Position numbers and translations under genes: made by a program
Assembly: GCA_002773545.1 (NCBI GenBank)
Contig: PFAV01000003.1
Span: 10,017 to 23,543 of the forward strand
Source: a bacterium (Candidatus Gribaldobacteria) CG10_big_fil_rev_8_21_14_0_10_41_12
GTDB taxonomy: Bacteria > Patescibacteriota > Minisyncoccia > Minisyncoccales > CG1-02-41-26
DNA: 13,527 bases
Direction: 5' to 3'
Shown here: piece by piece, positions 5,773 to 9,351 of the stretch
Numbering within the stretch: position 1 is the first letter of the stretch
Layout: each line of letters begins with the position of its first letter
The notes under the pieces: generated by a model
Told to the model about the DNA's origin: nothing
Databases searched by the model: none
The model's input: the letters and a program-made list of their open reading frames with translations, nothing else

Positions 5773-6720
5773 ATGTCTCAAAAAATAAACAATGAGCTTC
5801 GTTTGGACCCGGTCTCGGGCGACTGGGTGGTAGTGGCTAGCGGCCGAGCCAAGCGACCCGAGGTCAGACCTCGGGGCGGCGGCGCTTGCCCATTTTGCGT
5901 TTATTTCACTAATAAAGAAGCGGCCTTGGGCCAGATTGTAGTTATCCCCAACAAATTTCCCGCTTTTTCGCTAGTTAGACGAGGTCTGCCCTCGTCTGGA
6001 CTTTTTCAAAAAATGCCGGCTAATGGGTTCCATGAAGTGGTTATCACCAAAAGCCATACTAAATCCATAGCTGATTTTTCGCTTGATGAAACTATTGAAC
6101 TGTTAAGCGTTTATCAAAGCCGCTATCTGGCTTTAGCTAAAGAAAAAGCAGTCAATTATATTTTTATTTTTCACAATCACGGCGCCTCGGCCGGCGCTTC
6201 CATAGCGCACCCTCATTCGCAAATTATTGCCACTTCCTTGGTGGACGGCGGGTTTTTGCAGCCGCTTAAGGCCGCGGAAAAGTTTTACCAGCAAAATAAA
6301 GAATGTCTTTATTGTTCAATCAATCAAGCCGAGCTAAAAGGCCAAGAAAGAATTGTCGCTGAAAATAGCAATTTTGTAGCCTTGTGTCCCTTTGCTTCTA
6401 AAATGTCTTTTGAAATAATGATTGCTCCTAAAAAACATTCACCCCGCTTTGAAAGAATCACTGAAGAGGAAAAGGACAACCTGGCTGATATTTTACGCCT
6501 AACTTTGGCCAAAATTAAAAAAGGCTTGAACAACCCGGATTATAACTTTTACATTAGAACGGCTCCCTGCGATAATAAAGAGCATAACTCATTTCATTGG
6601 CATTTAACCATTCTGCCCAAAACGCAAACCTGGGCTGGTTTTGAGCTAGGGGCTGGTATGGAAATTATCACCACCCCGCCCGAACAAGCCGCCCAGTATT
6701 TAAGAAAAGTTAAGGTATGA
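5773..6720 (+). CDS. galT: Galactose-1-phosphate uridylyltransferase family protein
   Basis: GalT-family enzymes transfer a nucleotidyl group between sugar phosphates; in the Leloir pathway the pair is UDP-glucose and galactose-1-phosphate. The 315 residues show NELRLDPVSGDWVVVASGRA (7-26), a zinc-type CPFC (39-42), NKFPA (60-64) and GFHEVVI (85-91). The nucleophile motif is HPHSQ (146-150) with H148 the likely uridylylated residue. A second pair is CLYC (178-181), and FHWHLTILPK is near 274-283. The GalT match is good, but related ADP-sugar phosphorylases share these motifs, so the exact substrate is open. Two perfect 8-bp-arm palindromes sit in frame in linker regions (residues 29-35 and 69-75). 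It overlaps tpiA by ATGA. It is not normally part of this operon. Confidence 0.82.
   Translation: MSQKINNELRLDPVSGDWVVVASGRAKRPEVRPRGGGACPFCVYFTNKEAALGQIVVIPNKFPAFSLVRRGLPSSGLFQKMPANGFHEVVITKSHTKSIADFSLDETIELLSVYQSRYLALAKEKAVNYIFIFHNHGASAGASIAHPHSQIIATSLVDGGFLQPLKAAEKFYQQNKECLYCSINQAELKGQERIVAENSNFVALCPFASKMSFEIMIAPKKHSPRFERITEEEKDNLADILRLTLAKIKKGLNNPDYNFYIRTAPCDNKEHNSFHWHLTILPKTQTWAGFELGAGMEIITTPPEQAAQYLRKVKV
5857..5875. repeat. In-frame palindrome 1 in galT
   Basis: This is a perfect inverted repeat, CCCGAGGT-CAG-ACCTCGGG. Its core GAGGTCAGACCTC differs by one base from GAGGGCAGACCTC, found in the 24-bp inverted repeat after rpmJ. It encodes PEVRPRG (residues 29-35), just before the zinc CPFC motif, in a segment that looks like a linker. 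Confidence 0.75.
5977..5997. repeat. In-frame palindrome 2 in galT
   Basis: This is a perfect inverted repeat, AGACGAGG-TCTGC-CCTCGTCT. The 13 bases GAGGTCTGCCCTC at 5981-5993 recur exactly at 9329-9341 in the rpmJ-rpsM hairpin. It encodes RRGLPSS (residues 69-75), between NKFPA and the GFHEVVI strand, a place where family members tend to vary in length. Confidence 0.75.
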
Positions 6721-9165: not shown

Positions 9166-9282
9166 TTGAAGATTAGACCGTCAGTCAAAAAAAGATGTTT
9201 GAAATGCAAAGTGGTCCGTCGCAAGGGCCGCGTTTATATTATTTGCGAAAATCCTAAACACAAACAGCGACAAGGATCATGA
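9166..9282 (+). CDS. rpmJ: 50S ribosomal protein bL36 (L36), TTG start
   Basis: bL36 is a tiny zinc-ribbon protein of the large subunit. Reading from TTG at 9166 gives 38 residues: [20 protein letters not shown] followed by [18 protein letters not shown]. This matches the family along its full length. The zinc ligands C11, C14, C27 and H32 are present, so it is the zinc-binding form. No ATG exists in frame: the only ATG nearby (9149) is in another frame and soon hits a stop, and the reading frame is closed by TAG further upstream. A TTG start is therefore the only sensible choice apart from rarer non-standard codons. The gene is between infA and rpsM as usual. The last base of its TGA is the first base of a 24-bp inverted repeat. 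Confidence 0.93.
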
Positions 9283-9351
9283 AAATTAGCGGAGGGCAGA
9301 CCTCCTGAAAACTTGCATGCAGTCTGGGGAGGTCTGCCCTCCGCTAATTTT
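9282..9351. repeat. Perfect 24-bp inverted repeat between rpmJ and rpsM
   Basis: The left arm (9282-9305, beginning AAAATTAGCGGAGGGCAGAC) and right arm (9328-9351) are exact reverse complements over 24 bases, with a 22-base loop containing the palindrome TGCATGCA. The right arm ends in TTTT, followed by TTAATT, so it could act as a terminator or attenuator between rpmJ and rpsM. However, GAGGGCAGACCTC and its complement also occur as palindromes inside galT, which favours a dispersed repeat. The inner GC-rich part of the stem would be very stable in RNA. Confidence 0.85.

Follow-up and report, generated by a model that had tools for sequence, protein, structure and literature searches.

The window, i.e. 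the whole stretch of 13,527 nucleotides analysed here, corresponds to G000:C52:10017-23543 of the source genome (G000), which belongs to an uncultured Patescibacterium near Ca. Gribaldobacteria and comprises 713,950 bases in 75 contigs. It harbors a galT gene that is host to two short palindromes and, further along, an inverted pair of the same core sequence in a gap which, judging by translated ORFs and gene order, we take to be that between rpmJ and rpsM. The features are as follows:

5773..6720, + strand: galT, an ORF for a galactose-1-phosphate uridylyltransferase-like protein (Pfam GalP_UDP_transf and GalP_UDP_tr_C; solved relatives e.g. 1z84), host of two copies
5857..5875: solitary palindrome copy 1, CCCGAGG-TCAGA-CCTCGGG, i.e. 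CCCGAGGTCAGACCTCGGG, in frame in galT, encoding PEVRPRG in the linker preceding CPFC
5977..5997: solitary palindrome copy 2, AGACGAGG-TCTGC-CCTCGTCT (as a whole AGACGAGGTCTGCCCTCGTCT), in frame in galT, encoding RRGLPSS in the linker past NKFPAF
9282..9351: inverted pair of cores with perfect 24-bp arms (9282-9305 and 9328-9351), not present in the orthologous region of genome G002

An earlier note on this DNA had described both galT palindromes as perfect, with arms of 8 bp. Both are real, but 8 bp applies to copy 2 only, while copy 1 features 9-bp arms flanking one base. ORF translation corroborated that the two copies are in frame and encode the peptides given above, and the intergenic repeat indeed possesses perfect 24-bp arms. 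All these palindromes are members of a genome-wide family, which is wider than first noted.

The same note had proposed to check whether GalT residues 29-35 and 69-75 are extra, which they are not. In an alignment of 21 GalT proteins, linker 1 comprises 10 residues here compared to 11-22 in the 20 homologues, and linker 2 comprises 20 residues compared to 21-34. Since both linkers are the shortest of all aligned proteins, a net addition of residues is ruled out, and the comparison, proposed beforehand as a refutation test, speaks against a simple recent insertion into galT. The shortness of the linkers rather suggests that the copies mark sites, either old or occupied anew, in linkers that tolerate them, or that they replaced linker sequence. 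According to the GalT alignment, the first site is also filled in G002, a member of the same genus, where it reads CCCCGGGGTCAGACCTCGGGG. The second site is occupied in G002 by a different, fully paired stem and in G011, from another genus, by a slightly broken, degenerate palindrome resembling the long form beside Y1 transposase genes; G001 lacks the core. A GalT structure predicted by AlphaFold2 from six sequences reached a mean pLDDT of 55.3, with values below 50 around both copies, and was discarded as unusable.

Anatomy and location of the palindrome family

The over-representation of the core throughout the genome, which the earlier note had proposed to check, was borne out: GAGGKCAGACCTC has 32 exact matches (15 forward, 17 reverse) in the 713,950 bases and, at up to one mismatch, 33 + 36 = 69 matches, the reversed control yielding 0 in both cases. 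The family follows the core consensus RGGKCAGACCY, and its many dispersed copies comprise both single and inverted-pair forms, namely 42 solitary cores and 39 inverted pairs. Beyond the 11-base core the arms vary among copies yet pair inside each copy. For the 42 solitary copies, the mean contiguous flank stem is 2.83, as opposed to 1.36 with shuffled partners (top of 2000 shuffles, 2.21), and for the 38 pairs with full flanks it is 7.21, as opposed to 1.45 (highest 3.08). Solitary units span about 19-27 bp and are read in several frames; grouped by eye, they feature recurring arm types such as CCCCG..CGGGG, found in genes, and TGTACG..CGTACA, the latter being present, again by eye, in G008 of another genus.

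The distribution of the family is patchy. Among 40 relatives scanned, core copies number 36 in G002, 20 in G008, 17 in G014 and 6 in G010, and there are 0 matches in G001 of the same genus. Across the phylum, RGGKCAGACCTC is present in 40 of 379 sampled genomes and absent from most; apart from the source genome, only G082 (13) exceeds four copies.

The location of the copies was counted in stretches of G000 and G002 picked around core matches, which hold 78 clusters (48 and 30, respectively). Within these stretches, 54 clusters are intergenic or lie in short or otherwise doubtful ORFs, 21 are in frame within genes (10 in G000, 11 in G002) and 3 reside in RNA genes, which supports the earlier note in its view of one dispersed family of palindromes occupying intergenic DNA as well as reading frames. 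The ten in-frame copies of G000 are found in galT (two), an ADP-forming acyl-CoA synthetase-like gene, an Elp3-like gene (two), tsaD, a radical-SAM gene, ileS, an IorA-like gene and a Y1 transposase gene. Those of G002 reside in mnmA (three), the IorA-like gene, galT (two), a MacB-like permease (residues 18-25), a methyltransferase, enolase and a membrane protein (two), whose Pfam match lies under the family cut-off. Hence, unrelated genes, galT, ileS, mnmA, enolase, elp3-like and tsaD among them, carry in-frame copies.

Regarding structured RNAs, the 16S rRNA of G000 contains one copy about 110 nt from its 5' end, which from its position would correspond to helix 6/V1, and the RNase P RNA bears a copy in both G000 and G002. 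In the RNase P RNA of G001, a short hairpin occupies the place where the element sits elsewhere. When L101 9906 (G002) is compared with G000:C59:655, the element is common to both RNase P RNAs and the surrounding paired arms differ over about 20 nt on each side, as if palindromes were nested.

Other palindromes occur alongside this family. Among 216 ORFs, 16 palindromes with arms of at least 10 bp lack the core, compared to 2.2 in codon-shuffled controls. In G002, other palindrome families lie in reading frames at L106 (enolase), L104 3630-4329, L093 4211-5375 and L110 (ileS); among such palindromes without the core are GGAAGGAG..CTCCTTCC, AAGGAAC..GTTCCTT and AGTTCCGAGCTCGGAACT, some of them matching those beside Y1 genes. 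Hairpins centred on GCGATCGC (AATTCGTGCGATCGCACGAATT type), another dispersed palindrome, were observed at G000:C17, G000:C71 and in tsaD of L077. Furthermore, at L001, L002, L013 and L160 a longer repeat, which reads as a GCAACCATCTCATTAT- or MVAKLFRSEILDF-like peptide, was seen repeatedly close to elements and within the G008 locus for RNase P RNA.

Orthologous sites and their occupants

Comparison of orthologous regions revealed both filled and empty sites. The intergenic pair of the window and the 16S copy are absent from G002, and conversely a pair at G002:C16 is absent from G000. At site 3 of mnmA, G002 encodes KGRSALP (7 additional residues, 21 nt), and 9 of the 11 remaining rows of the alignment are empty at this position. 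Of the 21 genomes with a match, 12 were aligned; among them, G013 does not contribute an ortholog, G003 bears an insertion of its own at this site and the gene of G000 is ended by the contig end past it. At its copy, the enolase of G002 exceeds that of G000 by 8 residues, and the G002 IleS has 8 residues more where a doublet of another palindrome lies. At the site orthologous to G000:C17:4117, G002 has the outer hairpin but not the element, a state that may reflect either a loss or an empty site. Such filled and empty sites show gain or loss of copies and support mobility of the family. Overall, the interpretation of the earlier note is supported in part, with GalT itself showing no net addition.

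In addition, gene sites shared between genomes are not always filled by the same palindrome family, as in linkers of galT, mnmA and ileS. Site 2 of mnmA holds the present core family in G002 and, in degenerate form, in G011, and G018 bears CGGCAACCGGGTTGCCG there, a palindrome found in and beside a Y1 gene of G012 from the same genus as G018. Likewise, the ileS copy of G000 lies opposite an unrelated palindrome in G002, and the G002 site orthologous to G000:C17:3236 holds the palindrome that flanks the Y1 gene of G002:C58.

Y1 transposase genes and their own palindromes

Matches to PF01797, the domain of Y1 (IS200-type) transposases, number 30 in 12 of the 24 genomes of the family. Of these, 23 loci were examined, three other G009 matches were left out, and L131, L132, L133 and L135 were scanned besides, the core being absent from all four. 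As judged by eye, 15 of the 23 loci have one palindrome at least twice, counting the Y1 domain and the 900 nt to either side of it, and at 12 of the 23 it lies on both sides of the domain. The core of the galT palindromes was found at two of the 23 loci: at G000:C12 it is located upstream, inside and at the 3' end of the Y1 gene, and at G014:C56 it is confined to the gene itself and its upstream side. A tree built from 22 Y1 proteins (L180 gave no ORF) places these two in one supported, internally unresolved clade of seven, which also has other palindromes; where the tree is resolved, palindrome types track its clades.

Half of the Y1 ORFs (11 of 22, namely L113, L114, L128, L161, L167, L171, L172, L173, L176, L177 and L179) contain in frame a palindrome with at least 17 nt in common with their own flank. 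These in-ORF palindromes differ between genes but occupy two homologous places, mostly ahead of what we name the HuH strand or behind what we name the PWSSY motif. As a control, 210 ORFs of at least 200 aa in G000 and G002 were assessed, of which 7 share at least 11 nt: 2 Y1 genes, 4 AT-rich cases (11-12 nt) and 1 element overlapping an ORF end. The latter accounts, as an artefact, for the single match of at least 17 nt among the 208 other ORFs.

A core-bearing Y1 gene was not found in each copy-rich genome: in G002 (36 cores) none of the three Y1 loci has the core, and G008 (20 cores) and G082 (13 cores) have no PF01797 match. In the source genome, the arms of the AGGKC copies differ from the TTGGC arms next to its Y1 gene.

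Origin of the copies and relation to known systems

In our view, each galT palindrome is probably a solitary copy of a mobile palindrome of REP type, which is non-autonomous and belongs to RAYT-like (Y1, IS200-type) transposases. Copies would most likely have spread in the form of single-stranded hairpins on which an IS200-like Y1 (RAYT-type) transposase acts. They would persist where a hairpin does little harm, i.e. in intergenic gaps, where inverted pairs predominate, in helices at the periphery of structured RNAs, and in linkers of proteins, for which the core brings few stop codons and selection would preserve the frame. Because the GTAG tag is lacking and G002, G008 and G082 are devoid of a core-bearing Y1 gene, the mobilising enzyme is one that we infer: a Y1 protein would move the copies, would presumably do so on single strands, and a particular one would serve the AGGKC subfamily of the source genome.

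An unlikely rival is a MITE of another, unseen transposase, in which the inverted pairs (about 60 bp) would be the mobile form, the core the end of their inverted repeats, and the solitary genic copies remnants of internal deletion. The pairs do recur with similar spacing and middles, according to which they were sorted by eye into classes, the G002 copy at C6 looks internally deleted relative to G000, and the copies of G008 and G082 occur without a PF01797 match. However, solitary copies feature recurring arm types of their own and match the form of the palindromes beside Y1 genes. Moreover, ortholog alignments exhibit by eye no target duplication of constant length, apart from one possible TAAA at G002:C16. 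It is improbable that the hairpins are selected RNA devices (terminators or elements of mRNA stability and control) duplicated and kept for their function. Many pairs do lie between genes, some followed by T runs, and stems remain paired though their sequence differs in orthologous copies (galT copy 2; G000:C71 versus G002:C59), yet this hardly accounts for copies within essential genes, 16S rRNA and RNase P RNA, and the family is lacking in G001 and most sampled genomes of the phylum. Local origin by hairpin-templated repair of imperfect palindromes, which would suit arms that vary between copies and pair within each, is scarcely credible, since dozens of loci unrelated to one another carry an identical core of 11-13 bases, which such repair cannot put there; it may nevertheless have shaped the arms after copies were placed.

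The closest known systems include those of REP/RAYT type. In REP/REPIN systems with a RAYT (TnpA-REP), termed 'REPtrons', short palindromes occur singly or as inverted pairs and the Y1 HuH gene is flanked by its own palindrome; REPs inside ORFs have been reported as well, with different REPs near the same recB site in two Xanthomonas species (PMC3116915, PMC3733652, PMC8266576). The present family shares the many short palindromes in single or paired form and, at part of the Y1 loci (for the present core, at G000:C12 only), a Y1 gene with its own palindrome on both sides. It differs in that a GTAG or CGTC tag is not enriched: within 30 nt, GTAG is near 10 and CGTC near 7 of the 78 clusters (median tetranucleotide, 19), and GTAG was seen next to one divergent Y1 gene only (L170). 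The importance of the GTAG motif varies among the REPtrons described (PMC8266576). Further differences are the copies in 16S rRNA and RNase P RNA, the transposase genes with their own palindrome in frame, and the copy-rich genomes without a matching Y1 gene. The system is therefore best read as one of REP/RAYT type that dispenses with the usual tag and is tolerated in genes and structured RNAs, its link between enzyme and element being presumptive.

Two other groups of repeats invite comparison. Rickettsia palindromic elements (RPEs) measure about 150 bp (PMC10969869) and encode a conserved peptide; they are palindromic repeats of a reduced genome that lie in frame within genes unrelated to one another (PMC10969869, PMC3733652). 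The likeness to RPEs drawn by the earlier note is apt for behavior, i.e. palindromic repeats in frame within unrelated genes of a reduced genome. The solitary units here are about 19-27 bp and read in several frames, and REP/RAYT systems are the closer relative. By description, the family also resembles the very small mobile repeats of cyanobacteria that Elhai reportedly presented in 2008, which are said to measure a few tens of bp and to occur within ORFs as well as the gene for RNase P RNA; we know of no transposase linked to them. Among open-licence papers, a literature search for RAYT with Patescibacteria, or Gribaldobacteria with palindromic, returned no match, and within this scope the statement that no coding-invading family had been described for this group is not contradicted.

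Tentatively, and with low confidence, the sites could be regarded as inherited landing pads at which the palindrome is exchanged upon change of the resident transposase, and, through the copy inside a Y1 gene, the transposase might bind the gene or mRNA that encodes it, thereby keeping enzyme and element matched and controlled. REP elements are usually regarded as extragenic. Here, a reduced genome tolerates REP-like copies in frame in essential enzymes as well as in 16S rRNA and RNase P RNA, and the copies constitute a natural catalogue of places where proteins and RNAs accept short insertions. Moreover, with Y1 genes that carry their own palindrome in frame, the question of how RAYTs and REPs are matched becomes directly testable.
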